DNA of 64,000 nt from positions 124,001 to 188,000 of the forward strand of contig LJSV01000004.1 of the NCBI GenBank assembly GCA_001314715.1, read 5' to 3'. The DNA comes from Rhodobacteraceae bacterium HLUCCA12. Its GTDB lineage: Bacteria; Pseudomonadota; Alphaproteobacteria; Rhodobacterales; Rhodobacteraceae. This document shows positions 4,907 to 21,508 of the stretch, one piece after another (the first letter of the stretch is position 1; each line of letters begins with the position of its first letter). A program made the position numbers and the translations under genes. Below the pieces are notes generated by a model. It had not been told where the DNA came from. It ran no database searches and was given only the letters and a program-made list of their open reading frames with translations.

Positions 4907-5349
4907 ACCCGAGACAGCGCCAGACCGGCCAGCACCAGCGCCATTCCGGCCAGACGGGTCCAGCTGATGTCGTGGACCGGAAGGCCAAAGGCACCATAGC
5001 GATCCAGCAACAAGGCCGCGACCAGCTGGCCCAGCACAATGCCCATGGTCGCGCTGAACGCACCGATCGTGGGAACCGCCCAGATCAGCGCCGACATGTA
5101 AAATGCCCCCATCGCGCCGCCGATCCAGACCCAGGGCGGCGCCGTTGCAACCAACTCGCGCGGCAGTCCGGTGCCCCGCATCGCCCAGACCACGGCCAGA
5201 ACCAGGAAGCCGACCAGAAAATTGATGCAGGCCGCGACGATCGGATCGCCAGCGGCGCGCGCCAGCGCGGCATTGATCGGCGCTTGCGACGACAGAACGC
5301 CGCCGGCCACCACCACGACCGCAAGCGCGAACAGCGTGGCCCCACTCAT
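4903..5349 (-). CDS. DMT-superfamily transporter, YdcZ/DUF606 type
   Basis: A 148-residue very hydrophobic protein with four to five predicted membrane segments and the early [12 protein letters not shown] region typical of the YdcZ (DUF606) branch of the drug/metabolite transporter superfamily. Such proteins are half-size and are thought to function as dimers. The start codon overlaps the stop of the Gfo/Idh/MocA gene upstream (ATGA at 5346-5349), so it is the last gene of the three-gene minus-strand operon CMD - oxidoreductase - transporter. A role in export or import of the compound handled by the island is an inference from position only. Confidence 0.8.
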
Positions 5350-6350
5350 TTTGGGACGGCCACGACGCTGCGGTCGCGGGCCGAGGCGATGATCGCCTCA
5401 TAGACCGAAGCGCCGTGAATCATTTCCTCGGGCGTGATCGGATAGGGCGCGCGCCCGTCCACCGCATCGGCAAAGGCCACAAGTTCCGCGGCAGGGGTAT
5501 CGAAGCCCGCGCAGGTGATCCGCTCGGGCTCGGGCGGGGTTTCACCGGCGGCGACAGGCACGGGATGAAACGCGAATTCGTCCAGCCCCGGCGTGCGGAT
5601 CTCGGCCAGCCCCTTGCTGCCGTAGACACACATCCGATAGCTGGCGGCGGTGGAGATCAGCGCCGACAGATACCCGGTCGCGCCGTTTTCGAAGCGCAGC
5701 AAGATCCCGGTGGTATCCGGCACACCGGACACGGCGGCCCGGTGCGTCGTCTGGCAGATCACATCGGCAATGGGACCGTTCAGATCGATCATCCCATCCA
5801 GCATGTGAATGCCCAGCGGCGCCATGCCGCCGACTGGCGATTGGCTCGGGTCGGCGCGCCAATGCTCGGGCGACATGAACAACCCGCCCGGCCCCGTCAT
5901 CGTGGCCTCGATATGTTCGACGATTCCCAGCCGCCCGTCTCGGATACGTGCGCGCAACTCGGTCATGTTGGGGTGAAAACGCCGGTTATGGCCCAGCACC
6001 AGCGTGACCCCGGCATCCTTGATCGCCTTGACCGCGCGGCGCGCGCTTGCGCCATCCAGGGTAAAGGGTTTTTCGACGAAGACATGCTTTCCGGCACGCG
6101 CCGCGGCGATCATCTGCGCCTCGTGGTCGCGATGCGGCGTAGCCAGAACGACCGCCTGAACCGTGGGGTCGGCCAGCACCTGTTCATAGCTCTCATGCAG
6201 CCGAAATCCCTGCCGCGCGGCATAGTCACGAACCTTGTCGGGCGTGCGCGTGGCGCCGGCGACGAAACGGATTCGGTCGCTCTTGCCCTGCACCGCATCG
6301 ACCAGCACCTGACCCCACCAGCCGATCCCAACAATCGCTGCATCCAGCAT
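5346..6350 (-). CDS. Gfo/Idh/MocA family oxidoreductase
   Basis: A 334-residue NAD(P)-dependent dehydrogenase or isomerase. The Rossmann motif GIGWWG lies at the N-terminus, the family EKP motif (KHVFVEKPF) follows at about residue 95, and the HNRRFHP segment and C-terminal GFO/IDH domain come after. The ATG at 6350 follows a strong AGGAGGGG ribosome-binding site; an in-frame ATG at 6392 would lie inside the upstream gene. It starts 10 bases after the CMD-like gene and overlaps the transporter gene, so the three are co-transcribed. It shares the unusual GWWG dinucleotide-binding loop with the other Gfo/Idh/MocA protein of the island at 8357, suggesting an old duplication within the pathway. 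Substrate unknown. Confidence 0.9.
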   Translation of the reverse strand: MLDAAIVGIGWWGQVLVDAVQGKSDRIRFVAGATRTPDKVRDYAARQGFRLHESYEQVLADPTVQAVVLATPHRDHEAQMIAAARAGKHVFVEKPFTLDGASARRAVKAIKDAGVTLVLGHNRRFHPNMTELRARIRDGRLGIVEHIEATMTGPGGLFMSPEHWRADPSQSPVGGMAPLGIHMLDGMIDLNGPIADVICQTTHRAAVSGVPDTTGILLRFENGATGYLSALISTAASYRMCVYGSKGLAEIRTPGLDEFAFHPVPVAAGETPPEPERITCAGFDTPAAELVAFADAVDGRAPYPITPEEMIHGASVYEAIIASARDRSVVAVPK

Positions 6351-6360
6351 CGAACCCCTC

Positions 6361-6930
6361 CTATTCCGGTCCCGCGAACGGGTCCACCGCACCTTCGGGC
6401 AACGGCACCTCGAAAGCGTTGATCGTCATCGATATCAACGTGTAGTAGCCAAGGATGCCGACAAGTTCCACCGTTCCGGGCACGCCCAGACAGACGACTG
6501 CGCGCGCATAAGTCGTATCGTCCACTCGGTGTTGGCGGTGCAGCCGGTCGCTGAAGGCATGCACGGCGGCCTCGTCCTCGCGCTCGAAGGCCGGGACACG
6601 CCCGGTTCGAATCGCTTCGATCACGGTCTCCGACACCCCGGCGCGCGCGGCTATCGGCGCATGCACGGCCCATTCGAACCCGGACTTCCAGAAAGCGCCG
6701 GTGGTGAGGATCGCCAGTTCCGACAGGCGCGGCGGCAGACTGGTGCCGAACCGACAGAACGCACCCAGATCCTGCGCCTTGTCGGCCAGCCCCGGACTTT
6801 GCAGCCAGACCCGCAACGGCCCCTCGACGATCCCGCGGGGGCCGGACTGGATGGCATCGAAGATCCGCTGCTGTTCGGGCGAAAGGGCCGCTTCGTCAAG
6901 TATCACGGGGCGCCGGGTATGGTCGGACAT
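6361..6930 (-). CDS. Carboxymuconolactone decarboxylase-like (CMD/AhpD fold) protein
   Basis: A 189-residue protein of the CMD family. The segment around residues 80-125 (LSELAILTTGAFWKSGFEW, then HAPIAARAGVSE) is the characteristic helix pair. The CxxC pair of AhpD peroxidases is absent, so it belongs with the pathway-associated CMD proteins rather than the AhpD reductases. The ATG at 6930 is chosen because the upstream extension of the frame runs through the promoter region. First gene of a minus-strand operon. A perfect TTTATC-N4-GATAAA palindrome lies 50-65 bases upstream of the start, suggesting control by the island's TetR regulator. Confidence 0.85.
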   Translation of the reverse strand: MSDHTRRPVILDEAALSPEQQRIFDAIQSGPRGIVEGPLRVWLQSPGLADKAQDLGAFCRFGTSLPPRLSELAILTTGAFWKSGFEWAVHAPIAARAGVSETVIEAIRTGRVPAFEREDEAAVHAFSDRLHRQHRVDDTTYARAVVCLGVPGTVELVGILGYYTLISMTINAFEVPLPEGAVDPFAGPE

Positions 6931-6979
6931 GGCATTTTCCTTTGGGGCGACGATCGGCCCGTTGCAGGCCAAACACCAT

Positions 6980-6995
6980 TTTATCGGATGATAAA
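6980..6995. promoter_or_regulatory. Palindromic operator, site 1 (TTTATC-GGAT-GATAAA)
   Basis: A perfect 6-base inverted repeat with a 4-base spacer, lying between the dctP terminator and the start of the CMD-like gene. It matches the palindrome in front of the cyclase gene (12316-12331) in both arms and, in degenerate form, three other divergent promoter regions of the island. Proposed binding site for the TetR-family regulator encoded at 11493-12164. Confidence 0.6.
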
Positions 6996-7039
6996 TAGTG
7001 CGGGACACCCGGTCAATCGCGCCCCGCGCCTGCCGCACG

Positions 7040-7066
7040 AAAAAGGGCCGGGCAACCGCCCGGCCC
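7040..7066 (-). terminator. Rho-independent terminator of dctP
   Basis: A perfect 9-bp stem (GGGCCGGGC / GCCCGGCCC) with a 4-base loop, followed on the minus strand by five T residues. It lies 34 bases beyond the dctP stop and separates that transcript from the CMD operon. Confidence 0.85.
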
Positions 7067-7099
7067 CCTGTCGCCCGAACGGGCGTTCGATGCGTCCGA

Positions 7100-8185
7100 T
7101 CAGTCCAGCGAATACTCGGTCGGCCACTCATAGCCGCTTTCGGCGACCAGATCGAGATAGGTCTGCATCACCTCGGTTCCCGGCATGCCGCGGTCATCGG
7201 CTTCCTGTGCCTGAACCCGCGGGAAATCGGCCAGCGACGCGGCCCAGTCGGCGCGCGCCTCGTCGCTGATTTCGGCAACCGTCGCGCCTTCCTCTTCCAG
7301 CCCGGTGAGGCCGCGTTCCTGCGCCTCGTCCAGGGCCTCGCCGCTGCGCTGCTCGTATTCGGCGCCGACTTCGAGAATGATCTGCTGAACATCTTCCGGC
7401 AGCCGCGCGAGGCTGTCCATGTTCATGGTCAGCCCGTTCACGATCATCGGGCCAAAGCCGATCAGGGTGTAGTAGGGCGCCGGTTCATAATAGCGGAAAC
7501 CCAGGTAGGCGGACGGGAACATCAGCCAGCCGTTATAGACGCCAGTCTGAAGGTTCATATAGCCATCGGGCAGGGTCGATTGCACCGGCACGGCACCGGC
7601 ATATTCCAGCCAAGGCAGGTTCGGACCGGCCCCACCGATGCGCACACCCTCAAGATCCTGCGGCGTCTCCCACGGATCGGTGGTGCCAAGGTGGTAGTTG
7701 TCCCAGCCGCTCAACCCCAGAAGGGTCTGGTTGTATTCCGCTTCGAATTGCTCGGTCAGCCAAGAATGCTCGTCATACACTCCACGCACGATTTCGGCCG
7801 CATCGGCCGAGCTTTGCGGCCCGAACGGTGCGTAGTAAGGGAAATTGTGCAAGAACAGCTTGGACGGCTCGAAGCAGAAGCAATAGGCGCCGACATCAAG
7901 AAGTCCTGACTCGACCGCTTCCAGCGTATCCGCGACGCCCGCGATCGAACCGCCATACCCTTCGATGAAGGTGATGGTGTGATCGGTCTCTTCGGCCACG
8001 CGGCGGGTCACTTCGGGGACGAAGTGGTTTTCGACCAGATTGACATAGACCGACGGTCCCGACGGATGGCCTGCACCGACGCGCAGTGTAAAGCTCTCGG
8101 CAGCCGCTGCCTGCGGCAATGCGAACAGCGCGGCCAGCGCGACGCCCGAAAGCGCCTTTGACGAAATACGTGTCACAGGTTTCAT
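7100..8185 (-). CDS. dctP: TRAP transporter substrate-binding protein DctP
   Basis: A 361-residue periplasmic solute-binding protein. The ATG at 8185 follows GGGAGGAAAG and is followed by a clear signal peptide (MKPVTRIS then a hydrophobic run ending near AAAAES, about residues 1-27). The mature part begins FTLRVGAGHPSG, as in DctP/TRAP binding proteins, and has an LP-x-GYMNLQTGVYNGW segment at about residues 205-225 of the type that lines the ligand site. It is transcribed away from the matching membrane genes dctQ and dctM (9528-11398), with a Gfo/Idh/MocA gene between. Candidate operator site 2 lies in the shared upstream region. The ligand is not predictable from sequence; the family binds organic acids and related anions. 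Confidence 0.88.
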   Translation of the reverse strand: MKPVTRISSKALSGVALAALFALPQAAAAESFTLRVGAGHPSGPSVYVNLVENHFVPEVTRRVAEETDHTITFIEGYGGSIAGVADTLEAVESGLLDVGAYCFCFEPSKLFLHNFPYYAPFGPQSSADAAEIVRGVYDEHSWLTEQFEAEYNQTLLGLSGWDNYHLGTTDPWETPQDLEGVRIGGAGPNLPWLEYAGAVPVQSTLPDGYMNLQTGVYNGWLMFPSAYLGFRYYEPAPYYTLIGFGPMIVNGLTMNMDSLARLPEDVQQIILEVGAEYEQRSGEALDEAQERGLTGLEEEGATVAEISDEARADWAASLADFPRVQAQEADDRGMPGTEVMQTYLDLVAESGYEWPTEYSLD

Positions 8186-8262
8186 TCCAGACTTTCCTCC
8201 CGTTTCTGGATCTCCCTTGCAACTCACGGCGGCAGGACCGCTTGCCCCGTCGCCGCGAATTG

Positions 8263-8278
8263 TTTATCACTCGCTAAT
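8263..8278. promoter_or_regulatory. Degenerate palindromic operator, site 2
   Basis: TTTATC-ACTC-GCTAAT: the left arm is perfect and the right arm matches GATAAA at four of six positions. It sits almost exactly midway between the divergent starts of dctP (8185) and the Gfo/Idh/MocA gene (8357). Supported mainly by the better copies elsewhere in the island. Confidence 0.4.
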
Positions 8279-8356
8279 CATTATCCGAACGGCGGGTTGC
8301 GTCAATCGTTTTCCGAAACGGCCAGCGCCACCGGCGGATTGGAGGGAGGGGGAATC

Positions 8357-9349
8357 GTGCTGAACATCGGCATCGCCGGTTTTGGCTGGTGGGGGCGCCA
8401 TATCGCCACGCGCTTGCAGGACCACCCGCGCTTTCGTCTTGCCGCGATCGCAGAACCCGACACGGCGCTGCATGGCGATATCTCGGCACTGGGCGCGCGC
8501 GCCCTGCCCGGTTTCGACGCCCTGCTGGAGGATGCCGATGTCGAGGCCGTGATCCTGACGACGCCACATATGCTGCATGAAGAGCAGGTCACTGCCGCCG
8601 CGCGCGCGGGCAAGCATGTGTTTTGCGAAAAACCCCTTGGCCTGAGCGCCGCAAGCGCGCGCCGTTCCGTCGATGCCTGCCGCCAGGCGAATGTGATCCT
8701 GGGCATCGGCCACGAACGCCGGTTCGAGCCGGCGATGCAACGGCTGAAGGCGATGCTGGATGCGGGCGCGCTGGGCACCGTGATGCATGCCGAGGCGGCC
8801 TTTTCGCACAACAAGCTGACCGGCATTGCGCCCGGCGGGTGGCGCACGTCGCGCGAACTGTCACCCGGCGCGGGCATGACCGGCATGGGGATTCATCTGA
8901 CCGACCTGTTCCTATGGATGTTCGGCCCCGTCGCCACCGTCCAGGCGCAGGTGCGCGATCGCTCGCTGGGCTGGCCCACGGGCGACATGGTGGTAGCCCA
9001 GCTTGGGTTTCAGGCGGGCATGACGGCGCATATGCAGGCGATCCTGAACACGCCGCATTTCATGCGCTTTCACGTCTTCGGCACCGATGGCTGGGTGGAA
9101 ATCCGCAACGCCACCCACCCCGACACGCCGGGCGGCGTAACCGACTGGCTGCATTGCCCGGCCAGCGGCAACCCGCAGGCCGAACAGATCGCCTGGACCG
9201 ACAGCGTGGTCAGCAACCTTGAGGCCTTTGCCGATGCCGTCGCGGGCACCGCGCCCTATCCATGGTCCGACGACGAACTGATCGGCAACATCGCCGTCTT
9301 CGAGGCGATCTGCGCCGCATCCGACAGCGGCGAAACGGTGCGGCCATGA
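8357..9349 (+). CDS. Gfo/Idh/MocA family oxidoreductase
   Basis: A 330-residue NAD(P)-dependent oxidoreductase. The GTG at 8357 is chosen because it follows a strong GGAGGGAGGGGG ribosome-binding tract and opens directly into the Rossmann strand (LNIGIAGFGWWG); the upstream ATG at 8297 would place the purine tract inside the gene. The EKP motif is in KHVFCEKPLGL at about residue 95, and the GHERRFEP segment follows. It is related to the oxidoreductase at 5346-6350. It is divergent from dctP and followed after 178 bases by dctQM on the same strand, so it probably belongs to the same inducible unit. Likely acts on a sugar, cyclitol or other hydroxylated intermediate; the substrate is unknown. 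Confidence 0.9.
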   Translation: MLNIGIAGFGWWGRHIATRLQDHPRFRLAAIAEPDTALHGDISALGARALPGFDALLEDADVEAVILTTPHMLHEEQVTAAARAGKHVFCEKPLGLSAASARRSVDACRQANVILGIGHERRFEPAMQRLKAMLDAGALGTVMHAEAAFSHNKLTGIAPGGWRTSRELSPGAGMTGMGIHLTDLFLWMFGPVATVQAQVRDRSLGWPTGDMVVAQLGFQAGMTAHMQAILNTPHFMRFHVFGTDGWVEIRNATHPDTPGGVTDWLHCPASGNPQAEQIAWTDSVVSNLEAFADAVAGTAPYPWSDDELIGNIAVFEAICAASDSGETVRP

Positions 9350-9527
9350 GGCGGGCGCGGCAATGTTTTGCACGGCCGTTCGTGCGGGGGCTATCAGCGG
9401 CCTCGGCAACAGGTAGCAGAACTTATCATAGGCCTGGGCGGTTGCCACCCGCGCGATCGGCCACCTACAACAACCAAACCGACGGTGCGGCATCAACCTG
9501 TGCCCATCGCGGCCGGGAGGTTCGACA

Positions 9528-10088
9528 ATGATCATACGCTTTCTGGGAGGCTTTGCGCGCACGATCCATGTCATTTCGGCATTCTGGGTTCTGATCCTGG
9601 GCTTTGCCATCATGGCCGATGTGTTGTCGCGCAATCTCTTCTCCTATCCCATTCGCGGCACGACCGAGGTGATCAAGAACTCGGTCGTCGCCATCACGTT
9701 CCTGCAACTGCCGCTGGCGGTGGCCTCGGGCTCGATGCTGCGCACCGAACTGGTGAGCGACGCACTCGGGCCGCATGGCCGCCGGGCCTTGCGCACAATC
9801 GGTTATGTGCTGGGTGCGGCGCTGTTCACCATGATCGCGGTCAGCGCATGGGGCGATGCAATCTACGCTTGGCGGATCGGTGAATACGAGGGCGAGGGCG
9901 CGTTGCGGGTGCCCACATGGCCGGTGCGGTTCGTGATGATCGGCACCGCGATCCTGTCGGCCATCACCTATCTGTCGATGATCTGGCTCGACTGGACCGG
10001 CCAGCTTGAACAGGAAAACGCGTATCCCGGCATCCTCAGCTTCGATGCCAAGGCTTCACAGGTTATGACCGGCGAGAGGAAGCACTGA
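9528..10088 (+). CDS. dctQ: TRAP transporter small permease DctQ
   Basis: A 186-residue membrane protein with four predicted membrane segments (about residues 13-35, 45-65, 85-107 and 128-150), the DctQ topology. The ATG follows GGGAGG. Its stop overlaps the dctM start (TGATG at 10086-10090). It forms the membrane complex with DctM and is presumably served by the DctP encoded in the opposite direction at 7100-8185. The 178-base gap upstream contains no recognisable operator, only a lone TTATC half-site near 9423. Confidence 0.9.
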   Translation: MIIRFLGGFARTIHVISAFWVLILGFAIMADVLSRNLFSYPIRGTTEVIKNSVVAITFLQLPLAVASGSMLRTELVSDALGPHGRRALRTIGYVLGAALFTMIAVSAWGDAIYAWRIGEYEGEGALRVPTWPVRFVMIGTAILSAITYLSMIWLDWTGQLEQENAYPGILSFDAKASQVMTGERKH

Positions 10089-11398
10089 TGCCCACCGATA
10101 TCGTTCTCTACATGATCGGCCTTCTGATCATCCTGGTTCTGCTGGGCTTTCATATCGCCGTGGTGCTGGCACTGACGTCGATGCTGGGCCTTTGGCTGAT
10201 GCTGGGCAGTTTCGACATCGCGGTGTCGATGCTGGGATCGACTGCCTATGAGGCAATTCGCAGCCATGTGTTCATCGTGATTCCGCTGTTCGTCCTGATG
10301 GGGGATCTGGTGTCGAAATCGGGTGCGGCGGGCGATCTCTATCGCGTCTGCAACCGCGCGCTCAAGCATCTGCCCGGACGGCTGGCCGTGGCGACCGTCG
10401 CCGGCAACGCGATCTTTGCGGCGGTGACGGGGGTATCTGTGGCCTCGGCGGCGGCGTTTTCGCGCATCGCGTATCCGGAAATGCGCGCACTGGGCTACAA
10501 GAAGGAATTCGCCGTGGGCTCGGTCGCGGGCAGCGCCTGTCTGGGCATGCTGATCCCGCCCTCGGTGCTGTTGATCGTCTGGGCCATCCTGACCGAGATG
10601 TCGGTGGGCGCGCTGTTCATTGCCGGGGTCATACCCGGCATCCTGCTGGCGCTGCTGTTCGCCGGCTGGTGCATCGTCGCGGCGATCATGAACCCCTCGA
10701 TCGCTCCGGCCGCCGAGATCCGCACCGATCTGGAACCCACCGACCGCAGGGAAATCTTTGGCGCGCTGGGCATTCTGGCGCTGGTGGTCCTGGTGATCGG
10801 CGGCATCTGGGGGGGCGCCTTCAACCCGACCGAGGCTGCCGGCTTCGGCGCGGTCGGTGCGCTGGTGCTGGGCGTTGCCAAGGGCATGCGCTTTCGTCAT
10901 GTGATGCAGGCGATCTATTCGGCCGGCCGCACCACGGCACCGATCATGTTCCTGCTGATCGCAGCGATGATGTATTCGCGCCTTCTGGCGATGGGCGGTG
11001 CCGTCAATTATATTCAGTCGCTGTTCCTGGGCCTGGGCGGCGGCGTGGTCGTGGTGGTTCTGGTCATGGTGCTGATCTGGCTCTTGCTGGGTATGCTGAT
11101 CGATTCGGTGTCGATCATCCTGTTGACCGTGCCGATCTTTGCGCCGCTGGCCATGTCGATGGGCGTGAACCCGATCGCCTTCGCCATCTTCGGCATCCTT
11201 GTGATCGAGGCCGGGCTTTTGACACCGCCGTTCGGCCTGCTGGTCTATACGGTCAAGGGCGCGATCCCCGACAAGGACGTGCGGCTGGGTCATATCTTTC
11301 GCGGCTCGGTGCCCTACTGGATCATGATCCTGATCGCGGCCTTTGCGGTGATCGCCTTTCCCGGTCTCGCGACCTGGTTGCCGTCTATCGCTTTCTGA
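10088..11398 (+). CDS. dctM: TRAP transporter large permease DctM
   Basis: A 436-residue protein with about 12 hydrophobic segments and typical DctM landmarks: the GVSVASAAAFSRIAYPEM segment near residue 120, GSACLGMLIPPSVLL near 155-165 and a C-terminal TPPFGLLVYTVKG. It is the sodium-coupled transport subunit of the TRAP system. It is translationally coupled to dctQ by a one-base stop/start overlap. A strong hairpin lies 28 bases downstream. Confidence 0.93.
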   Translation: MPTDIVLYMIGLLIILVLLGFHIAVVLALTSMLGLWLMLGSFDIAVSMLGSTAYEAIRSHVFIVIPLFVLMGDLVSKSGAAGDLYRVCNRALKHLPGRLAVATVAGNAIFAAVTGVSVASAAAFSRIAYPEMRALGYKKEFAVGSVAGSACLGMLIPPSVLLIVWAILTEMSVGALFIAGVIPGILLALLFAGWCIVAAIMNPSIAPAAEIRTDLEPTDRREIFGALGILALVVLVIGGIWGGAFNPTEAAGFGAVGALVLGVAKGMRFRHVMQAIYSAGRTTAPIMFLLIAAMMYSRLLAMGGAVNYIQSLFLGLGGGVVVVVLVMVLIWLLLGMLIDSVSIILLTVPIFAPLAMSMGVNPIAFAIFGILVIEAGLLTPPFGLLVYTVKGAIPDKDVRLGHIFRGSVPYWIMILIAAFAVIAFPGLATWLPSIAF

Positions 11399-11425
11399 TT
11401 GCGCCGGGCCGTCGTCGCAGTGTCA

Positions 11426-11454
11426 AAGGCCTCTGGCAGCACGCCGGGGGCCTT
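11426..11454 (+). terminator. Probable terminator of dctQM
   Basis: Stem AAGGCC-t-CTGGC / GCCGG-g-GGCCTT with a 5-base loop, located between the convergent dctM and tetR genes and followed by a T-rich stretch (CGGTTATTT). There is no clean T-run, so efficiency is uncertain; it could serve both directions. Confidence 0.5.
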
Positions 11455-11492
11455 CGGTTATTTCGGGGTGGTCGCCATGGCCCGCCCCACAC

Positions 11493-12164
11493 TCAGTCAG
11501 GACGCTTGCGCACGGCGCGGGCCAGCACCTCGGGCGCGACGCGCAGATACATGTCCACCGCCGTCCGAACGGCGAAGTCGTAGTTCACGGCCTCGACCGA
11601 GCGATAGATCTTTTCGCGAACGCCCTGGTAAAAGACCGTCCCGTGCATCAGCCAGACCAGTTCCAGTTCATCCTCGGTGATCGGAACATCGGTCTTGTAA
11701 CCCAGTTCGGCGCGCATCTCGTGGCAGATCGGTGTCAGCAGAAGATCGGCCACCCGCTGGATATACCGGCTGTTGATGTCCAGCCCCTTGAGCCCGGCAA
11801 AGAAGAAGATCCGCATCCAGCGTTCGTTGAATACGACCGGGCAATAGGCGGCATAGAAATCCAGCAGCCGGCCGCGCAGCGGGCGCGTGCGATCGGTCAG
11901 CGTCTCGGCCCAGCTGTCTTGCCACTGGCTGACATAGACATGGCGATAGACCTCGTTGATCAGATCGTCCTTGCTGTCGAAATAGCGATAGATCAGCGGC
12001 TGGGTGATTCCCATCTGTTCCGCCAGAACGCGCGTGCCGGCGTCGAACCCTTCCTTCGAAAAGAAATCCGCCGCCTTCTGCACCAGCATCTGCTTGCGTT
12101 CCTCGGGCGGAAGGCGTGTGGTGCGCCTGGTTTTGGCGGCGGCTTTCGGTTCGCTGTCTGTCAC
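11493..12164 (-). CDS. TetR/AcrR family transcriptional regulator
   Basis: A 223-residue one-component regulator. The N-terminal DNA-binding domain has the helix-turn-helix at about residues 44-63 (TRVLAEQMGITQPLIYRYFD), followed by an all-alpha ligand-binding domain of TetR length. The GTG at 12164 is preferred because it follows AGGACGG and opens the protein; the ATG at 12296 lies upstream and would prepend a low-complexity tail. It is the only regulator gene in the 4.9-22.4 kb island and is divergent from the cyclase gene, with a perfect palindrome (site 3) between them, so autoregulation is likely. As for most TetR proteins, repression relieved by a pathway compound is the expected mode; the ligand is unknown. 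Confidence 0.9.
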   Translation of the reverse strand: MTDSEPKAAAKTRRTTRLPPEERKQMLVQKAADFFSKEGFDAGTRVLAEQMGITQPLIYRYFDSKDDLINEVYRHVYVSQWQDSWAETLTDRTRPLRGRLLDFYAAYCPVVFNERWMRIFFFAGLKGLDINSRYIQRVADLLLTPICHEMRAELGYKTDVPITEDELELVWLMHGTVFYQGVREKIYRSVEAVNYDFAVRTAVDMYLRVAPEVLARAVRKRPD

Positions 12165-12315
12165 GCTGTCCGTCCTGTGAAATCCGACTCCTGGCCTTTG
12201 GTATAGGCCCTTGGGGGCCTGCAATGCCAGCCCGGAAGCCCCCCGCAATCGGGCATGAGCTTTGCCGGTGGCACTGGCAGGGACGGCTTGCATCATGGAA
12301 AGCCGATGTTATTGT

Positions 12316-12331
12316 TTTATCGGTCGATAAA
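12316..12331. promoter_or_regulatory. Palindromic operator, site 3 (TTTATC-GGTC-GATAAA)
   Basis: A perfect inverted repeat 36 bases upstream of the cyclase start and about 150 bases upstream of the divergent tetR start. Same arms and same spacer length as site 1. Its AT-rich right half could overlap a -10 element of the cyclase promoter. Best candidate for the autoregulatory TetR operator. Confidence 0.62.
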
Positions 12332-12366
12332 TATTTCCGCAACGGAAAACACCCAGGAGAAGCACG

Positions 12367-13323
12367 ATGCCGATGAAGGTCAACCGCGCCGCGATCTACG
12401 AAGCCGCCGAAAAACTGTCGAACTGGGGGCGCTGGGGGCCGGACGACCAGCTGGGCACCCTCAATCTTGTTACCTCGCAGGACGTGGTCGATGCCTCGGG
12501 CCTGATCCGCAAGGGCAAGACCTTTGCCCTGGGCCTGCCGCTGGACGAAAAGATCCAGTCGGGCCTTTTCGGCGGGCGCTGGAATCCGATTCACACCATG
12601 CTGGCCACCGGCACCGACGCCGCCGCCGGCAACCAGGATGAGGGCGACGCCTTTCTGCGCTATGCCGATGACGCGCTGAACATGCCCTGCCAGGCATCGA
12701 CGCAATGGGATGCGCTGGCGCATATCTTTCTCGACGACAAGATGTGGAATGGTTACCCGGCGACGCTGGTCGATGCCCGCGGCGCCCGCAAGAACGGGAT
12801 CGAACATTACCGCGACAAATGCGTCGGCCGGGGCGTTCTGCTGGATGTGGCGCGCCACAAGGGGGTCGATGCGCTGGAGGATGGTTATGCCATCACCAAC
12901 GACGATCTGGACGCCACCGCCAAGGCCCAGGGCGTCGAGATTCGGCGCAGCGATTTCGTGATTGTGCGCACCGGGCAGCAGGAAGCGTGCCTGAAGTCTG
13001 GCGAATGGGGCGGGTATGCCGGGGGCGATGCGCCGGGCCTGGCGTTCGAGACCTGCTACTGGATCCGCGAACATGACATCGCCGCGATCGCTACCGATAC
13101 ATGGGGCTGCGAAGTGCGGCCGAACGAAACGACCGAGGCCAACCAGCCGTGGCACTGGGTCGTCATTCCCGCCATCGGCATCGCCATGGGCGAGATCTAT
13201 TACCTCAAGGAACTGGCCGAGGATTGCGCGGCAGATGGCGTTTACGAATTCTTCTTCTGCGCGCCGCCGCTGCATCTTCCGGGTGGGTGCGGCTCGCCCG
13301 TCAACCCGCAGGCGATCAAGTGA
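12367..13323 (+). CDS. Cyclase-family (kynurenine formamidase-like) metal hydrolase
   Basis: A 318-residue protein of the cyclase family, the group of metal-dependent hydrolases that includes kynurenine formamidase and isatin hydrolase. The ATG follows AGGAGAAGCACG. The usual HxGTHxDxP metal motif is represented by STQWDALAH at about residues 111-119, the variant of the longer GTQWDA-type subfamily, so the first metal-binding histidine is replaced while Asp115 and His119 remain. A PWHWVVIP segment near residue 262 supplies a second histidine pair. The stop overlaps the GTG start of the GST gene. Expected to hydrolyse an amide, lactone or ring-opened intermediate; the actual substrate is unknown. 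Confidence 0.85.
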   Translation: MPMKVNRAAIYEAAEKLSNWGRWGPDDQLGTLNLVTSQDVVDASGLIRKGKTFALGLPLDEKIQSGLFGGRWNPIHTMLATGTDAAAGNQDEGDAFLRYADDALNMPCQASTQWDALAHIFLDDKMWNGYPATLVDARGARKNGIEHYRDKCVGRGVLLDVARHKGVDALEDGYAITNDDLDATAKAQGVEIRRSDFVIVRTGQQEACLKSGEWGGYAGGDAPGLAFETCYWIREHDIAAIATDTWGCEVRPNETTEANQPWHWVVIPAIGIAMGEIYYLKELAEDCAADGVYEFFFCAPPLHLPGGCGSPVNPQAIK

Positions 13324-13952
13324 CACTGACGCTGTGGGGGCGCGCCAGCTCGGTCAATGTGCAAAAGGTGCTTTGGGCGCTGGATGAGCTGGGTGCGCCG
13401 TACAACCGTCACGATGCCGGGGGAAAGTATGGCCGGACCGACACGGCCGAATTCGCCGCGATGAACCCGAACCGGCGCGTGCCGGTATTGCAAGACGGCA
13501 ACTTTTGCCTGTGGGAATCGCAGGCCATCCTGCGGTATCTGGCGCGGCGGCATACCGGCCTTTACCCCGCCGATCCCGAGGGACGAGCCAGGGCCGACCA
13601 GTGGATGGCGTATTGCGATACGACCCTGCAACCGCCCTTCATCACGCTGTTCTGGCAGTATGTGAGGCTGCCCCAAACCCAGCGCGACCCGGCCGCGACC
13701 GATGCGGCACGCTCAAACCTGGGTGCGGCGCTGGCCGTGTTGGACGGGCATTTGCGCCACCACGACTGGCTGACCGGCGCGGAATTCGGCATCGCCGATA
13801 TTCCCGCGGGAAGCCTGATGCACCGCATTCACGCGCTGGACCTCATGCCCGCCGGCCTGGCCGGCGTCGAACGCTGGGCAGCGGTTCTGGCCGAACGGCC
13901 GGCGTATCAGGCGCATGTCGCGACCAGCTTCGACGAATTACGCGGCAACTGA
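13320..13952 (+). CDS. Glutathione S-transferase family protein
   Basis: A 210-residue two-domain GST. The GTG at 13320 overlaps the preceding stop (GTGA), indicating translational coupling with the cyclase gene. The N-terminal thioredoxin-like domain has LTLWGRASSVNVQKVLWAL with the Ser-Ser pair near residues 9-10 in the catalytic loop, then RVPVLQDG and the glutathione-binding WESQAILRYLA at about residues 62-72. The C-terminal helical domain follows from about residue 90 and carries the GAEFGIADIPAG segment. It resembles the theta/NuaA-like bacterial GSTs often found in aromatic catabolism, where they act as isomerases, dehalogenases or ether-cleaving enzymes. Role here is inferred only from context. 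Confidence 0.88.
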   Translation: MTLTLWGRASSVNVQKVLWALDELGAPYNRHDAGGKYGRTDTAEFAAMNPNRRVPVLQDGNFCLWESQAILRYLARRHTGLYPADPEGRARADQWMAYCDTTLQPPFITLFWQYVRLPQTQRDPAATDAARSNLGAALAVLDGHLRHHDWLTGAEFGIADIPAGSLMHRIHALDLMPAGLAGVERWAAVLAERPAYQAHVATSFDELRGN

Positions 13953-13965
13953 GCGCCGCGCGCGT

Positions 13966-15174
13966 TCACACCACGGCAAGCGGGGGCGGCACGACCGCAG
14001 TTTCGGACACGATCGTTGCCAGGTTCGGATTGTTCCGCCCGTCCGAATTGCCCCCATCCGGCGCCTGAAAGATCATCGCACCCAGATCGCGCGCCACCTG
14101 CCGCGCCAACGCGCCGGCCGGCTGACGCTCGGCTGAATAGGCGGCCAATGCCTCGGGCACCGCCGCCGCGCCATCGAGATGGCGGGCCAGCGCCTCGGCA
14201 TCGCAGGCGGCCTTGGTCACCCCCATTCCGACATGCGGGCGGGCAACCGAGGCCGCATCCCCCGACAAGGCGACCCGTCCATGCCAGTAACGCGGCGCCA
14301 GATGGTCGTAGATCGGCGTAAAGAACGGCATCTCGGATTTGCCCAGAACCTCGACGAAGGGGGGCGGCAACATCCGTTCGGCCAGCGCAACCCCGGCGCG
14401 GATCACGTCGGGGCGCACCCGTGGCGGCGGTATCGAAATCGCATGCCGGTGTCCATCCGCGTCGGTCAGCATGTCGGCCAGATCGCCCTCGGGCACGGGC
14501 ACATACCAGACGAAGTTGTAGCGCCGATGGCCCGGCCGCAGATCGTTGCCCGGCCCCGCGATCGGATAGCCCACGATCTGCGTGCCGGTCGGCAGATAGA
14601 GCCCGAAATGCGGAAAAACCTCGGATCTGACCGCCTCGCTCAGATCCGCTTCATGGGCGAGGGCGCGCCAGACCACATAACCGGAATAGACGGGTTGCAC
14701 CTCGGGCAGCATCTGCGCGCGCACCGCCGACCGAAACCCGTCAGCCCCGACCAGCAAATCCGCCTCGGGGCCGGGTTGGCCGTCAATGCGCACGCTGACG
14801 CTGTCGCCGTGATCGTCATAGCCGGTGACGTTGACCCCCAGCCGATAGCTGCCATGCGGCACCTGTGCGCGCAGCAGCGAATGCACCCGGTCCCATGAGG
14901 TGACAACCTGCGGCAGATCGCGGCGCGCGACGACGGCACCCGAGCGGTCGAACACCACGCGTTCTTGCACCGCGACCCCCAGATCGTCAGTCGTGGCCCC
15001 GGTCGCGCGAATCAGGCGGTTGAGGATGTCATGCGTGACGATGCCCGCCCCGCGCCCCGAAAGCTCGATATCCGAGCGTTCCAGCACCGTCACCTCCCAC
15101 CCGGCACGACACAGAAGATTGGCCGCGAACAGCCCCCCGATTGAGCCCCCGGCAACAATGGCGTGACGCGGCAT
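13966..15174 (-). CDS. FAD-dependent aromatic monooxygenase, 2,6-dihydroxypyridine 3-monooxygenase-like
   Basis: A 402-residue group A flavin monooxygenase. Residues 6-20 hold the FAD-binding AGGSIGGLFAANL fold, the DG motif VGADGFRS is at about 142-149, and the GD motif VALSGDAASVARPH is at 301-314. The mid-region (YSGYVVWRAL, then YPIAGPGN..., YNFVWYVPV and DLADMLTD) resembles, as I remember it, 2,6-dihydroxypyridine 3-monooxygenase of nicotine-degrading Arthrobacter more than salicylate or p-hydroxybenzoate hydroxylases. The ATG at 15174 follows CAGGAGGAAA. It is divergent from the cupin gene with palindrome site 4 between. Together with the Mo hydroxylase this suggests hydroxylation of an aromatic, perhaps pyridine-type, ring. 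No membrane segment; cytoplasmic. Confidence 0.83.
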   Translation of the reverse strand: MPRHAIVAGGSIGGLFAANLLCRAGWEVTVLERSDIELSGRGAGIVTHDILNRLIRATGATTDDLGVAVQERVVFDRSGAVVARRDLPQVVTSWDRVHSLLRAQVPHGSYRLGVNVTGYDDHGDSVSVRIDGQPGPEADLLVGADGFRSAVRAQMLPEVQPVYSGYVVWRALAHEADLSEAVRSEVFPHFGLYLPTGTQIVGYPIAGPGNDLRPGHRRYNFVWYVPVPEGDLADMLTDADGHRHAISIPPPRVRPDVIRAGVALAERMLPPPFVEVLGKSEMPFFTPIYDHLAPRYWHGRVALSGDAASVARPHVGMGVTKAACDAEALARHLDGAAAVPEALAAYSAERQPAGALARQVARDLGAMIFQAPDGGNSDGRNNPNLATIVSETAVVPPPLAVV

Positions 15175-15215
15175 GCAATTTCCTCCTGATGCGAACGGGA
15201 CTCGACCCGTGTTTG

Positions 15216-15231
15216 TTTATCAGTATATAAA
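15216..15231. promoter_or_regulatory. Palindromic operator, site 4 (TTTATC-AGTA-TATAAA)
   Basis: The left arm is perfect and the right arm matches five of six positions. It is centred between the divergent starts of the FAD monooxygenase (15174, 42 bases away) and the cupin (15286, 55 bases away). The TATAAA half could also be part of a -10 element. Confidence 0.55.
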
Positions 15232-15285
15232 TTAGATCGACGTGAGGCAAATCCCTTGCCTGCGGCATAACGCTACGGAGGAGCC

Positions 15286-15705
15286 ATGCTGGACGATGCA
15301 ACCAAGCAGGAACTGGCCGGCAAACAACACTGGTCGCCCGAGCTGGTCGAGGAACTGGCGCAGGCCCATACAAACGGCCGCGTCGGCAGCCGACTTGTGT
15401 CCGAGACCGACGAATACCGGATCTGGCTGATCACGATGCCGCCGGGCGCACGGCTGCCGTTTCATACGCATGTGCTGAATTATTTCTGGACCGCCACCAG
15501 CGAAGGTCGGGCGCTTTCGCGCTACGCCGACGGAACCGTGCGCGAGATGGATTACACGGTCGGATTGACCCAGCACATGCATTTCGCGGCGGGCGAGTCC
15601 ATGACCCATGACCTGGAGAATATCGGCGATACGGTGCTGTGCTTTACCACGGTCGAGGACAAGCGCAGCGCCAATGCGCCCTTGCCATTGGACAAATCCG
15701 CCTGA
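15286..15705 (+). CDS. Small cupin-domain protein
   Basis: A 139-residue single-domain protein. The core MPPGARLPFHTHVLNYFWTA at about residues 59-78 is a cupin motif 1 with two histidines. Motif 2 is weaker, with HMHFAAGE and MTHDLENIG at about residues 98-117. The ATG follows CGGAGGAG. It stands alone on the plus strand, divergent from the FAD monooxygenase and convergent with the peroxiredoxin gene, and lies under palindrome site 4. It could be a small metal enzyme (isomerase, dioxygenase or lyase) or a ligand-binding protein of the pathway. The sequence does not decide between these. Confidence 0.8.
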   Translation: MLDDATKQELAGKQHWSPELVEELAQAHTNGRVGSRLVSETDEYRIWLITMPPGARLPFHTHVLNYFWTATSEGRALSRYADGTVREMDYTVGLTQHMHFAAGESMTHDLENIGDTVLCFTTVEDKRSANAPLPLDKSA

Positions 15706-15801
15706 CTTCAGACGAAGGGCGGGAAACAGGGCTTTTCGCCCCGCGCCCCGCTCCTTTGTCGGCAAATCCAGCGCGCCGCGCCCGTCGCGGCGCGTCGGGC
15801 A

Positions 15802-16317
15802 TCAGGCGTGCGTGCCGCGCGCGGGGTAGCCGTTGGCAACGGCAAAGGTGATCTTGGCGGGCAAACCGGCGATGTCGGGCCGCGCGAAGGGCATGTTCGA
15901 GACATTGATCAGATAGAGCTTGCCGCTTTTGTCGATCAGAAACAGGCCCGGTTCACTGAACACGGCCGGTTCGGCATCCTTGATGGACGATGTCAGATAA
16001 AGCCCCCAGTCACGCGCCTGCGCCTCGGTCAGACCATAGCCGAGTTTCAGCGAAGCCAGCCCCCAGTCCGCCGCGGACTTCTCGGCGCGCTCGCGCGTAT
16101 CCATCGACACCGCGACGACCTCGGTTCCGGCCTCGGCATAGGCAGGCAAGAGCGCTTCAAGTTCACCCAGGAAGCCCTTGCAGACCGGGCAGTGCAGACC
16201 GCGATAAAAGACGACCATGGTAAAGTTTTGCGGCGCGCTGTCGGCCAGCGACCATGGGCCGGACAGGGTCTCGATCTCAAGGGCGGGGGCCGAGGTTGCG
16301 GGCATCAAATGTGTCAT
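15802..16317 (-). CDS. Peroxiredoxin-like (AhpC/TSA family) protein
   Basis: A 171-residue thioredoxin-fold protein. The motif YRGLHCPVCKGFL (about residues 38-50) carries Cys43 and Cys46 in a CPVC arrangement after the predicted strand FTMVVFYRG, the signature of the peroxiredoxin-like subfamily that differs from canonical PxxxTxxC peroxiredoxins. VVAVSMDTRERAEK and the GLFLIDKSGKLYLINVS strand follow. The ATG follows CAGGAGAG. It is divergent from the Mo-hydroxylase operon, with palindrome site 5 between. It may remove peroxide made by flavin or Mo oxidation, or act as a reductase for an intermediate; both are inferences. Confidence 0.85.
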   Translation of the reverse strand: MTHLMPATSAPALEIETLSGPWSLADSAPQNFTMVVFYRGLHCPVCKGFLGELEALLPAYAEAGTEVVAVSMDTRERAEKSAADWGLASLKLGYGLTEAQARDWGLYLTSSIKDAEPAVFSEPGLFLIDKSGKLYLINVSNMPFARPDIAGLPAKITFAVANGYPARGTHA

Positions 16318-16371
16318 GCTGCTCTCCTGTTTCGGGCGGCGGCAGATTGCACCGCGGTTTCATCCTTGCTA

Positions 16372-16387
16372 ATTATCGAGCGATAGA
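16372..16387. promoter_or_regulatory. Palindromic operator, site 5 (ATTATC-GAGC-GATAGA)
   Basis: A variant of the island palindrome: TTATC / GATAG arms with the same 4-base spacer. It is also embedded in a longer AATTATC...GATAATT inverted repeat. It lies between the peroxiredoxin start (16317) and the Mo-hydroxylase operon start (16451). Confidence 0.5.
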
Positions 16388-16450
16388 TAATTCTGTGCAG
16401 GCGTGCAAGGGACGTAATTGCACCTCACCGTCAGGCAAGGGAGGGTCCGG

Positions 16451-17311
16451 GTGAAAACCAACGCTTTCGGCTACAGACGCGTCACATCGGCCCGGCAGGC
16501 CGTGGAGCTGGCGCAGGAACTTGGCGAGGATGCGCGGTTCATCGCCGGCGGGCAAAGCCTGCTGGCGTCGTTGAACTTTCGGCTGGACGAGCCCGGTGTT
16601 CTGATTGATCTGGGCGCGATCGACGCCCTGCGCGGGATCGCTTGCATGGCAGAGGCCATCACGATCGGTGCGCTGACCCGTCACGCCGATGTGCTGCGAA
16701 GCCCTAAGATCGCGCGGGATCTGCCCCTGATCGCGCGGGCGATCCGTGAGGTCGCGCATCCGGCGATCCGAAACCGCGGCACGTTTGGTGGCTCATTGGC
16801 ACTGGCCGACCCGGCGGCCGAGATGCCCGCCTGTGCGCTGGCGCTGGATGCCCGGATGTCCATTCTTGGCCCCAGCGGCGAACGCGTCGTGCCAGCGGAC
16901 GACTTCTTTCTGGGTCTCTATGAGACCGCGCTTCAGCCGGGAGAGTTGCTGACCGGCGCCACCATCCCGTTACCCGAGGCCGGGTCACGTTTCGGCTTTG
17001 GCGAGCTGGCGCGCAGAAAGGGCGATTACGCCATGTGCGGCCTGGCGATGATGCTGGGCCCCGATCGGGCCGGCGCTCCGCAGTGGGCGCGCGTGGTCTT
17101 TTTCGGCCTCTCCGACCGTCCGGTGCGCAGCACAGCCGCCGAGGCCGCGATCCTGGCCGGTGCATCCCCTGCCGACAGCGCCGCCGTGGCCGCTGATGGC
17201 ATCGAGATCTATGGCGATCTGAACGCTGGCGAGACCACCAAGCGCCACTATGCCGGCGTCTTGCTGCGACGCGAGCTGGAACGCCTGACACAAGAGGTCA
17301 CCGCACCATGA
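16451..17311 (+). CDS. Molybdenum hydroxylase, FAD-binding (CoxM/CutM-type) subunit
   Basis: A 286-residue medium subunit of a xanthine-oxidase-family enzyme. The FAD/pyrophosphate loop FIAGGQSLLASLNFRL lies at about residues 32-47 and the second FAD motif RNRGTFGGSLALADPAAE at about 106-123, followed by the C-terminal CO-dehydrogenase flavoprotein domain. The GTG at 16451 follows GGGAGGG; an ATG at 16418 is in frame but would put that purine tract inside the gene. It opens a tightly coupled plus-strand operon: its stop overlaps the start of the [2Fe-2S] subunit (ATGA). It passes electrons from the Fe-S subunit to an external acceptor. Confidence 0.92.
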   Translation: MKTNAFGYRRVTSARQAVELAQELGEDARFIAGGQSLLASLNFRLDEPGVLIDLGAIDALRGIACMAEAITIGALTRHADVLRSPKIARDLPLIARAIREVAHPAIRNRGTFGGSLALADPAAEMPACALALDARMSILGPSGERVVPADDFFLGLYETALQPGELLTGATIPLPEAGSRFGFGELARRKGDYAMCGLAMMLGPDRAGAPQWARVVFFGLSDRPVRSTAAEAAILAGASPADSAAVAADGIEIYGDLNAGETTKRHYAGVLLRRELERLTQEVTAP

Positions 17312-17811
17312 GCGACACCCTTTCCATTACCCTGACCGTCAATGGCGAACGGATCAGCACGCAGGTGCCGCCGCGCCTTCCGCTGATCGACCTGTTGCGC
17401 GAAACGCTGGGTCTGACCGGAACGCATCTGGGATGCGCGCAAGGCGTCTGCGGCGCCTGCACCGTTCGGGTTGACGGGGAAACCGCGCGCAGTTGCCTGA
17501 TGCTGGCCGCACAGGCCGACGGCTGCCAGATCGACACGGTCGAGGGGCTGACCGACAGCGGCGCGCTGGCCGCGTTGCAGGACGCCTTTCACCGCCACAA
17601 CGCGGTGCAGTGCGGGTATTGCACGCCGGGCATATTGCTGGCGGCGGCCGAATTGCTGGACCAGGCCGAAAACCCGCCGACCCGCGACGAAATCCGCGAC
17701 CATATCTCGGGGAATTATTGCCGCTGCACCGGCTACCAGTCCGTGGTCGATGCGATTGCCGAAGTCGCAGGCAGCCGCGCGGCCCGCCCCAAGCCGGAGA
17801 CCGCGCCATGA
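17308..17811 (+). CDS. Molybdenum hydroxylase, [2Fe-2S] (CoxS/CutS-type) subunit
   Basis: A 167-residue iron-sulfur subunit. The N-terminal plant-ferredoxin-type cluster ligands are Cys43, Cys48, Cys51 (CAQGVCGAC) and Cys63. The C-terminal helical domain holds Cys102 and Cys105 (CGYC) and Cys138 and Cys140 (CRC). All eight ligands are present, so both clusters should form. It overlaps both the FAD subunit upstream and the large subunit downstream by 4 bases (ATGA each side), a classic coupled three-subunit arrangement. Confidence 0.95.
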   Translation: MSDTLSITLTVNGERISTQVPPRLPLIDLLRETLGLTGTHLGCAQGVCGACTVRVDGETARSCLMLAAQADGCQIDTVEGLTDSGALAALQDAFHRHNAVQCGYCTPGILLAAAELLDQAENPPTRDEIRDHISGNYCRCTGYQSVVDAIAEVAGSRAARPKPETAP

Positions 17812-20197: not shown

Positions 20198-21508
20198 ATG
20201 ACCGTCACCTATCTGAAATCCGCCAAACCCGATGCCGAACGCGCCGAGGACGACGCCCGCGTACGCGCCACGGTCGAGGCGACCCTTGCCGATATCGAAT
20301 CGCGTGGCGATGCCGCGGTGCGCGAGCTCAGCGAGAAATTCGACGGCTTTTCGCGCCCCTCGTTCCGGTTGACCGATTCCGAGATCGAGGCGGCGATGCA
20401 AAAGGTCTCGACCCGCGACATGGCCGATATCCGCTTTGCCCAGACCCAGATCCGCCGCTTTGCCGAGGCCCAGCGCGCCACCATGACCGATCTCGAGGTC
20501 GAAACCCTGCCCGGCATCGTGCTGGGTCATCGCAACATCCCGGTGCAATCGGTGGGCTGCTATGTGCCCGGCGGCAAATTTCCGATGGTCGCATCCGCGC
20601 ATATGTCGGTGCTCACCGCTTCGGTCGCCGGGGTGCCTCGCATCGTCGCCTCGGCCCCGCCGGTCAAGGGCGAGCCGCATCCGGCCATCGTCGCCGCCAT
20701 GAAGGAGGGCGGCGCACACGAGATCTATGTCCTGGGCGGAATCCAGGCCGTGGGCGCCATGGCGCTGGGCACCGAAACCATCGAGCCGGTGCACATGCTG
20801 GTGGGGCCGGGCAATGCCTTCGTCGCCGAGGCCAAGCGCCAGCTTTACGGCCGCGTCGGCATCGACCTATTTGCCGGCCCCACCGAAACCATGGTCATCG
20901 CCGACGAAACCGTCGATGCCGAGCTGTGCGCCACCGACCTGCTGGGCCAGGCCGAACACGGATACAATTCGCCCGCCTGCATGATCACCAACTCCCGCCC
21001 CCTGGCCGAGGCCACGCTGGCCGAGATTGATCGCCTGCTGGCGATCCTGCCCACTGCCGAAACGGCGGCGGCAAGCTGGCGCGACTATGGCGAGATGATC
21101 CTGTGCGACGACCATGACGCGATGCTGCGCGTGGCCAACGAAAAGGCCTATGAGCATGTCCAGGTCATGACCGACCGCGACGACTGGTATCTGGAAAACA
21201 TGCACAGCTACGGCGCGCTGTTCCTGGGTCCACGCACCAATGTCGCCAACGGCGACAAGGTGATCGGCACCAACCATACCCTTCCGACGAAAAAGGCCGG
21301 GCGCTATACCGGCGGCTTGTGGGTGGGAAAGTTCCTCAAGACCCACAGCTACCAGCGCATCACCTCGGATGCCGCCGCCGCCGACATGGCCGCCTATGGC
21401 TCGCGGCTTTGCATGCTCGAAGGGTTCGTCGGCCATGCCGAGCAATGCAACATCCGCCTGCGTCGCTATGGCGGTCGCAACGTGCCCTTCGGCACCGCCG
21501 CCGACTGA
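20198..21508 (+). CDS. Histidinol dehydrogenase-family catabolic dehydrogenase
   Basis: A 436-residue zinc- and NAD-dependent alcohol dehydrogenase of the HisD family, placed in a catabolic operon rather than a histidine operon. The residues that in HisD bind zinc and do catalysis are all present: Gln251 and His254 (QAEHGYNS), Glu319 and His320 (YEHVQ), Asp353 (GDKVIGTNH) and His413 (FVGHAEQ). It is therefore expected to oxidise a primary alcohol, possibly to the acid through the aldehyde. The closest catabolic family member I recognise is HpsN (sulfopropanediol 3-dehydrogenase), but similarity is only at family level. The ATG at 20198 follows GGAGAGG and lies 17 bases after the Mo large subunit. 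Confidence 0.88.

Follow-up and report, generated by a model that had tools for sequence, protein, structure and literature searches.

TetR-type regulators of local catabolic clusters are usually repressors, and in such systems a single tetR gene generally adjoins the operons that it controls, with sites upstream of these. RutR, which exerts pyrimidine-responsive control of pyrimidine use, has the box TTGACC-N4-GGTCAA, while LuxR has the consensus TATTGATA-AATT-TATCAATA plus one base. This consensus fits all ten consensus letters given in the accessible part of PMC2628434. According to the same part of that source, the LuxR operator spans 21 bp with dyad arms around a 4-bp non-specific centre, Vibrio harveyi LuxR both activates and represses, the change G5T is among the five predicted to be most harmful to the LuxR site, and a natural G-to-T change at arm position 5 abolishes control of aphA by HapR.

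The locus studied here, which lies in a 64-kb window (the whole stretch of DNA that was analysed), likewise has one tetR gene beside operons with upstream sites, and by fold and operator layout the nearest known relatives of its regulator are LuxR/HapR/SmcR from Vibrio. The encoded protein contains a TetR_N helix-turn-helix (PF00440, 41.2 bits against a cut-off of 24), and its predicted structure is an all-helical TetR/AcrR fold of 10 helices with a mean pLDDT of 88.6. Wherever the titles of the 50 Foldseek matches listed are informative, they name TetR-type regulators; 12 of the first 13 are Vibrio/Photobacterium LuxR/HapR/SmcR (the exception is 3bhq), at a modest TM of ~0.6 and 20-22% identity, and the entries 7amt and 7amn are LuxR with DNA. 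As is typical of TetR/AcrR regulators, a palindromic operator adjoins tetR itself as well as target operons. The window's TATTTATC-N4-GATAAATA has 6 of 8 arm bases in common with the LuxR consensus, and it shares the 6-N4-6 layout of the RutR box, from which it differs in arms and target genes. Several features nevertheless set this regulator apart from the Vibrio proteins. The NCBIfam LuxR/HapR model NF040929 gives it 30.3 bits against a cut-off of 350; by sequence alone, its helix-turn-helix is no nearer to LuxR/HapR/SmcR than to Mce3R or RamR; and its regulon is local and catabolic, whereas those quorum-sensing master regulators act globally. Furthermore, arm position 5 is T in the window's operator and G in the LuxR/HapR sites, as far as these are described in the accessible part of PMC2628434.

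The cluster comprises the following genes.
5346-6392, minus strand: second gene of the CMD operon, Gfo/Idh/MocA-type oxidoreductase
6361-6930, minus strand: CMD, carboxymuconolactone decarboxylase family protein (PF02627, 26.5 bits, cut-off 23)
7100-8185, minus strand: dctP, TRAP solute-binding protein
8357-9349, plus strand: gfo, Gfo/Idh/MocA-type oxidoreductase
9528-10088, plus strand: dctQ, TRAP small membrane subunit
10088-11398, plus strand: dctM, TRAP large membrane subunit
11493-12164, minus strand: tetR, regulator with recognition helix ITQPLIYRYF (GTG start inferred)
12367-13326, plus strand: cyclase-family (PF04199) protein, probable metal-dependent hydrolase
13320-13952, plus strand: glutathione S-transferase (GST)-like protein (start inferred)
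13966-15174, minus strand: fmo, FAD monooxygenase, nearest in the PDB to 2,6-dihydroxypyridine hydroxylase
15286-15705, plus strand: cupin-like protein, without a Pfam match
15802-16317, minus strand: AhpC/TSA-type peroxiredoxin-like protein (ahpC)
16451-20180, plus strand: Mo-hydroxylase of three subunits (FAD 16451-17311, 2Fe-2S 17308-17811, Mo 17808-20180)
20198-21508, plus strand: histidinol-dehydrogenase-like (HisD) dehydrogenase (TIGR00069, 416.9 bits, cut-off 243.8)
21606-22385, plus strand: short-chain dehydrogenase (SDR)

The cluster probably breaks down a ring-shaped nitrogen compound, and its substrate probably belongs to the (N-hetero)aromatic class; among the titles listed for homarine, dihydroxypyridine, isatin hydrolase and this set of genes, none describes such a cluster. 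The preliminary description placed the Mo-hydroxylase operon in the regulon but left unmentioned the HisD-like and SDR genes that follow on the same strand (to ~22385), and its count of eight transcripts is at odds with the nine that it listed itself.

The central finding of this study is a set of five palindromes of the form TTTATC-N4-GATAAA, which lie exactly where they were first reported and with the mismatches given below.
Operator 1, 6977-6998 (core 6980-6995, perfect): upstream of the CMD-Gfo operon, with a minus-strand promoter-like -10, TATCAT, inside
Operator 2, 8260-8281 (core 8263-8278, 2 mismatches, TTAGC-type half): between dctP and gfo
Operator 3, 12313-12334 (core 12316-12331, perfect): between tetR and the cyclase gene
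Operator 4, 15213-15234 (core 15216-15231, 1 mismatch): between fmo and the cupin gene, with a minus-strand promoter-like -10, TATACT, inside
Operator 5, 16369-16390 (core 16372-16387, 2 mismatches): between the peroxiredoxin gene and the Mo-hydroxylase operon

All five are intergenic with respect to the genes assigned here. The perfect site ascribed to tetR is present, but the cyclase operon, which diverges from tetR, shares it, and ~150 bp separate it from the tetR start. If up to 2 mismatches are allowed, the window holds five matches against 0.19 expected, a number reached in none of 100 dinucleotide shuffles of the window; with up to 3, there are nine against 3.1 expected, namely these five and four others. 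The 3.73-Mb genome contains only two perfect copies, both in this span, which also holds 3 of the 6 matches with at most 1 mismatch (reversed-pattern control, 1) and 5 of the 22 with at most 2 (control, 14), an enrichment with binomial p values of 6e-6, 3e-7 and 3e-9 at 0, up to 1 and up to 2 mismatches, respectively. As for the confinement to this locus that was originally proposed, both perfect copies lie here, and the 17 off-locus matches at up to 2 mismatches are close to the control of 14.

The full operator is longer than the palindrome first described, whose core stands but which falls three bases short on each side: it spans ~22 bp and reads TTATTTATC-RNNY-GATAAATAA, with T at a frequency of 0.99 among 138 half-sites at column 6 of the 22-mer, the column that corresponds to arm position 5 of the LuxR operator. 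A 22-bp matrix built on 69 sites from 18 related loci, with the window excluded, ranks exactly the five palindromes as the window's top five (26.5-30.9 bits), the next independent match scoring 6.2. Operator 4 scores highest (30.9) and operator 5 reaches 29.7, so that the original mismatch grades hold but the 'looser' site at 16372 and the site at 15216 with 1 mismatch score as well as the perfect ones. The lowest of the five, operator 2 (26.5 bits), is a copy of the TTAGC variant known from the dctP promoters of relatives. Locus L055 was omitted as a duplicate of L035 from the identity, promoter-conservation, motif-extent, covariation, promoter-scan and matrix sets; L044 was counted in the promoter-conservation and helix-covariation sets, and the motif-extent, promoter-scan and matrix sets were compiled without it.

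Judging from sequence, we consider it very probable that the five palindromes are operators of the TetR encoded at 11493-12164, and that this protein is a local, ligand-released repressor of the catabolic cluster. A TetR dimer would bind the 22-bp sequence at the operon heads for TRAP uptake, CMD/Gfo, cyclase-GST, FAD monooxygenase, cupin, peroxiredoxin and Mo-hydroxylase with HisD and SDR, and would also occupy the site in the tetR-cyclase intergenic region. It would most likely repress, by masking the -10 and the start region, until the substrate or an intermediate of the pathway, probably an N-heteroaromatic acid or a related one, binds and releases it. As a type of control, this is solid but of an ordinary kind for bacteria.

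An activating or dual role of the bound TetR, in place of plain repression, is unlikely but is the alternative that survives best. The layout of the window's promoters speaks against it: four promoter-like pairs were found in 6300-16800 against 2.2 expected by chance, and their -10 elements lie inside operators 1, 4 and 5 and overlap the edge of operator 2, so that four of the five operators overlap a promoter-like -10. The setting, a local catabolic cluster, is also one in which TetR proteins typically repress. A scan of 80 promoters in relatives, 7 of them without any match, was only mildly informative: in 27 of the other 73, the best promoter-like match overlaps the operator, where uniform placement would give 18%, and AT-richness confounds the comparison. 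On the other side, in 8 of 9 loci the dctQ operator immediately precedes a conserved TTGAC -35, a position that would fit activation or looping too, and among the nearest folds (HapR, SmcR and LuxR) is the V. harveyi protein credited with both activities in the accessible part of PMC2628434.

The assignment of the palindromes to this TetR is based on covariation of operator and recognition helix between TetR groups. The genome has 18 TetR_N matches, and the helix [ST]QPL[IL]YRYF occurs in one gene only. Across a sample of 63 loci, a window-type site with at most 1 mismatch was found in 27 of the 30 loci with this helix and in 1 of the 33 others. Three helix-bearing loci deviate: L044, where several cluster genes accompany this helix, has no site at up to 2 mismatches; L093 has no site; and the sole site of L091 has 2 mismatches. 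Twelve further loci (L045, L047, L048, L049, L051, L052, L054, L089, L106, L108, L109 and L112) form a sister clade, with 38-42% identity to the window's TetR and the helix TQSLLFxYF, beside a Mo-hydroxylase and another TRAP transporter whose genes are 29-45% identical to the window's in seven loci compared. The window-type palindrome is found in 0/12 of these loci, and their operator, TTGATC-N4-GATCAA, has the same 6-N4-6 geometry; with up to 2 mismatches and within 400 bp upstream of tetR, it occurs in 12/12 of them against 9/51 others. Fisher p-values overstate independence here, since the split of the two operator types may be a single evolutionary event. This covariation, with a helix present in no other gene of the genome, supports the original attribution and makes it highly improbable that the sites belong to another DNA-binding protein encoded elsewhere, with TetR a bystander. 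That idea would account for the similar TTTACC-N4-GATAAA palindromes that precede preT-like genes both in this genome and in G104, and for perfect sites in family genomes without a TetR match (e.g., G033, G037 and G086). Perfect sites are nevertheless uncommon in the family (14 sites in 11 of 100 genomes, own genome included), and in L086 and L087 sites accompany the TetR while no other cluster query has a match there. Within the window's genus, the TetR is found in its own genome only, among 18 genomes.

The sites are also conserved at the same promoters, another prediction of the preliminary description that held. With up to 2 mismatches, a site is present in 85 of 123 orthologous promoter regions in 20 loci (these 123 are not independent, as divergent promoters share sites), while each of 29 other arrangements of the half-site letters occurs in at most 4/123. 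The site is found at the cyclase promoter in 19/19 loci, at the Mo-hydroxylase promoter in 13/13, at dctP in 11/11 and at the cupin promoter in 10/12; at fmo it is present in 10 and absent in 6 of 16 upstream regions, and 7 of 12 ahpC upstream regions lack it. Promoter-specific variants are kept across relatives, namely TTTATA at fmo and TTAGC at dctP. Genome G284 has cupin and fmo on a separate contig (L125), with a site between the two, and neither occurs within 19.9 kb around tetR in its tetR locus (L038); in L123, on the contig of tetR locus L043, sites adjoin fmo/CMD and cupin. The palindromes' overlap with promoter-like hexamers and their local G+C of 56-64% in a 66% G+C window might suggest AT-rich promoter elements that arose by chance and have no specific regulator. 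This reading is ruled out for practical purposes, because conservation across related loci extends to both arms and to the 4-base spacing, the permuted half-sites are so rare and a matrix trained without the window ranks the five sites first.

The regulation proposed here places within one regulon genes that annotation handles separately, and the TRAP transporter, Mo-hydroxylase, FAD monooxygenase, cyclase, HisD/SDR and cupin are therefore predicted to serve one pathway. We see it as an evenly balanced possibility that the protein represents an undescribed alphaproteobacterial TetR group, structurally a cousin of Vibrio LuxR/HapR, whose operator specificity was re-coded in the course of its phylogeny by a few recognition-helix changes (QPL[IL]YRY reading TTTATC, QSLLF[KNR]Y reading TTGATC) while operator geometry stayed fixed, each clade controlling a different Mo-hydroxylase/TRAP catabolic route for heteroaromatic acids. 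The two clades with their matched operators offer a test case for how recognition helices encode DNA specificity. Among the titles listed for the motif itself, none is about such a regulon, and the accessible part of PMC12369385 has the motif strings in primers only; an earlier listing of the regulon, e.g., in RegPrecise, may exist. The operator also provides a handle for further regulon members in other genomes. Off-locus sites were examined in 20 stretches, with flanking genes read for 14, and a lactonase-like and DASS pair already emerges as such a member in two genomes.

The five palindromes TTTATC-N4-GATAAA on which the preliminary description had based a local TetR regulon were all recovered in the 64-kb window at ≤2 mismatches, where 0.19 matches are expected. 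Both perfect copies in the 3.73-Mb genome lie at this locus, as do three of the six matches at ≤1 mismatch and five of the 22 at ≤2 mismatches; the 17 off-locus matches are close to the level of a reversed-pattern control (14), in keeping with the proposed confinement to the locus. Alignment of the promoters extends the palindrome to TTATTTATC-RNNY-GATAAATAA, and a symmetric matrix built from 69 sites (≤2 mismatches) of 18 loci, with the window left out, places the same five sites at the top of the window. They are followed by an overlapping register of 16372 at 12.7 bits, and then by 6.2 bits.

Predicted operators (start of core, matrix score) and regulator gene of the window
6980, operator 1: 28.9 bits, rank 4
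8263, operator 2: 26.5 bits, rank 5
11493-12164, minus strand: tetR, helix ITQPLIYRYF
12316, operator 3: 29.7 bits, among the top five
15216, operator 4: 30.9 bits, rank 1
16372, operator 5: 29.7 bits, among the top five

TetR homologues occur in 30/295 genomes of the family (E ≤ 1e-30), and in 19/385 of the class and 1/18 of the genus (both E ≤ 1e-25), own genome included each time; a scan of genome contigs gave nine named loci, including those of Alkalilacustris brevis and Aquamicrobium sp. LC103. Near the closer TetRs the palindrome precedes the same genes as in the window. Taken together, the window, the loci of its TetR relatives and L044 number 20; 85 of 123 of their upstream regions hold a site, compared with at most 4 of 123 for each of 29 permuted versions of the half-site, which bears out the expected conservation at orthologous promoters.

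Loci with a site (≤2 mismatches) ≤350 bp upstream of the gene
cyclase: 19/19
moM (Mo-hydroxylase): 13/13
dctP (TRAP transporter): 11/11
dctQ (TRAP transporter): 9/11
cupin: 10/12
fmo (FAD monooxygenase): 10/16
ahpC (peroxiredoxin-like): 5/12
tetR: 5/20
gfo: 2/7
CMD: 1/2

The low count for tetR arises partly because, in locus L037, an OsmC-like gene, overlapping tetR by 4 bases, separates it from the site; OsmC-like genes are present in other loci as well. Paired sites ~30-96 bp apart occur in the dctP/dctQ and tetR/cyclase regions of many relatives. Asymmetric operator variants are specific to the promoter and found again in relatives: TTTATA at fmo/cupin, TTAGC at dctP/dctQ, and TTTATA or ATTATC..GATAGA at moM. 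In the metagenome-derived locus L063, the tetR frame (10001-10615) has an internal stop codon; the cyclase and fmo/cupin operators are retained.

Comparison of helix and operator in 63 TetR loci ties the palindrome to this regulator. A window-type site (≤1 mismatch) is found in 27/30 loci with the helix [ST]QPL[IL]YRYF, the exceptions being L044, L091 and L093, and in none of the 12 with TQSLLFxYF. The latter have TTGATC-N4-GATCAA ≤400 bp upstream of tetR in 12/12 cases (≤2 mismatches), and somewhere in the locus at ≤1 mismatch in 9/12. At ≤2 mismatches the patterns overlap, 4/12 TQSLLFxYF and 7/30 [ST]QPL[IL]YRYF loci also matching the other one. Among 21 loci with other helices, a window-type site occurs in one, L090 (TQPLLFRYF). 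The Fisher p-values for the associations (2e-13 and 1e-7) are too small because the loci share ancestry. In the structure model the recognition helix comprises residues 54-60, and one gene in the own genome, which has 18 TetR_N matches, encodes such a helix. L044 has the same helix and relatives of CMD, fmo, gfo and cupin, without a window-type operator at ≤2 mismatches; L086 and L087, from other families and matching no other cluster query, have the site too. A related palindrome, TTTACC-N4-GATAAA, is present in 10 of 11 TetR-bearing genomes and lies upstream of preT-like (GltD-type) genes in the two where the neighbour was read, the own genome (L128:7927-7942, contig C3) and G104 (L133:7684-7699), suggesting that another regulator uses an operator of similar form.

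The putative regulator would work like a local TetR repressor. Four promoter-like pairs were found in 6300-16800 (2.2 expected), and the -10 of all four lies inside, or overlaps the edge of, operators 1, 2, 4 and 5, an arrangement that fits steric repression; the TTTATA variant at fmo in the window is consistent with a -10 box (TATACT) within the operator. Across relatives the overlap is mixed: a promoter-like match overlaps the operator in 27/73 cases, versus 18% by uniform placement, and there is no match in 7/80. In 8/9 loci the operator at dctQ immediately precedes the -35, so that a looping or activating role is possible there. By structure comparison the closest folds are HapR, SmcR and LuxR; Mce3R and RamR, however, match equally well when only sequence is compared, and by score the protein falls outside the LuxR/HapR family. 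The LuxR operator is 21 bp long with a free 4-bp centre, a layout like that seen here, but its most critical base is not the one found at that position of the arms here (PMC2628434). Judged by title, the open-access papers searched yielded no account of this TetR regulon.

The regulon probably has members elsewhere. In genome G284, fmo and cupin are absent from 19.9 kb around tetR (L038) and found on another contig (L125), with a site between them; in L123, which shares its contig with the tetR locus L043, sites adjoin fmo/CMD and cupin. Perfect sites at L120:9985-10000 and L122:9703-9718 are flanked on one side by an adjacent gene for an AidB-like MBL-fold lactonase and on the other by a DASS-type transporter gene (in L120 beyond a cupin gene), both names being under their NCBIfam cut-offs; these two genes, in genomes that have the TetR, are probable further members.

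Our gene assignments agree with the earlier ones; HisD-like and SDR genes come after the Mo-hydroxylase genes. Quinoline 2-oxidoreductase is the nearest match of the Mo-hydroxylase large subunit, and 2,6-dihydroxypyridine hydroxylase that of the FAD monooxygenase; for the cyclase it is a single uncharacterised structure. Further enzymes are encoded in related loci: a PcaD-like lactonase that exceeds its NCBIfam cut-off, a luciferase-like monooxygenase with flavin reductase, a beta-keto acid cleavage enzyme, and an allantoinase-like deacetylase that scores below its cut-off. The likeliest substrate would be an N-heteroaromatic or related acid. Outside the regulon, at 26823-30613, lies a second molybdenum-hydroxylase-like gene pair, by eye like xanthine dehydrogenase subunits.
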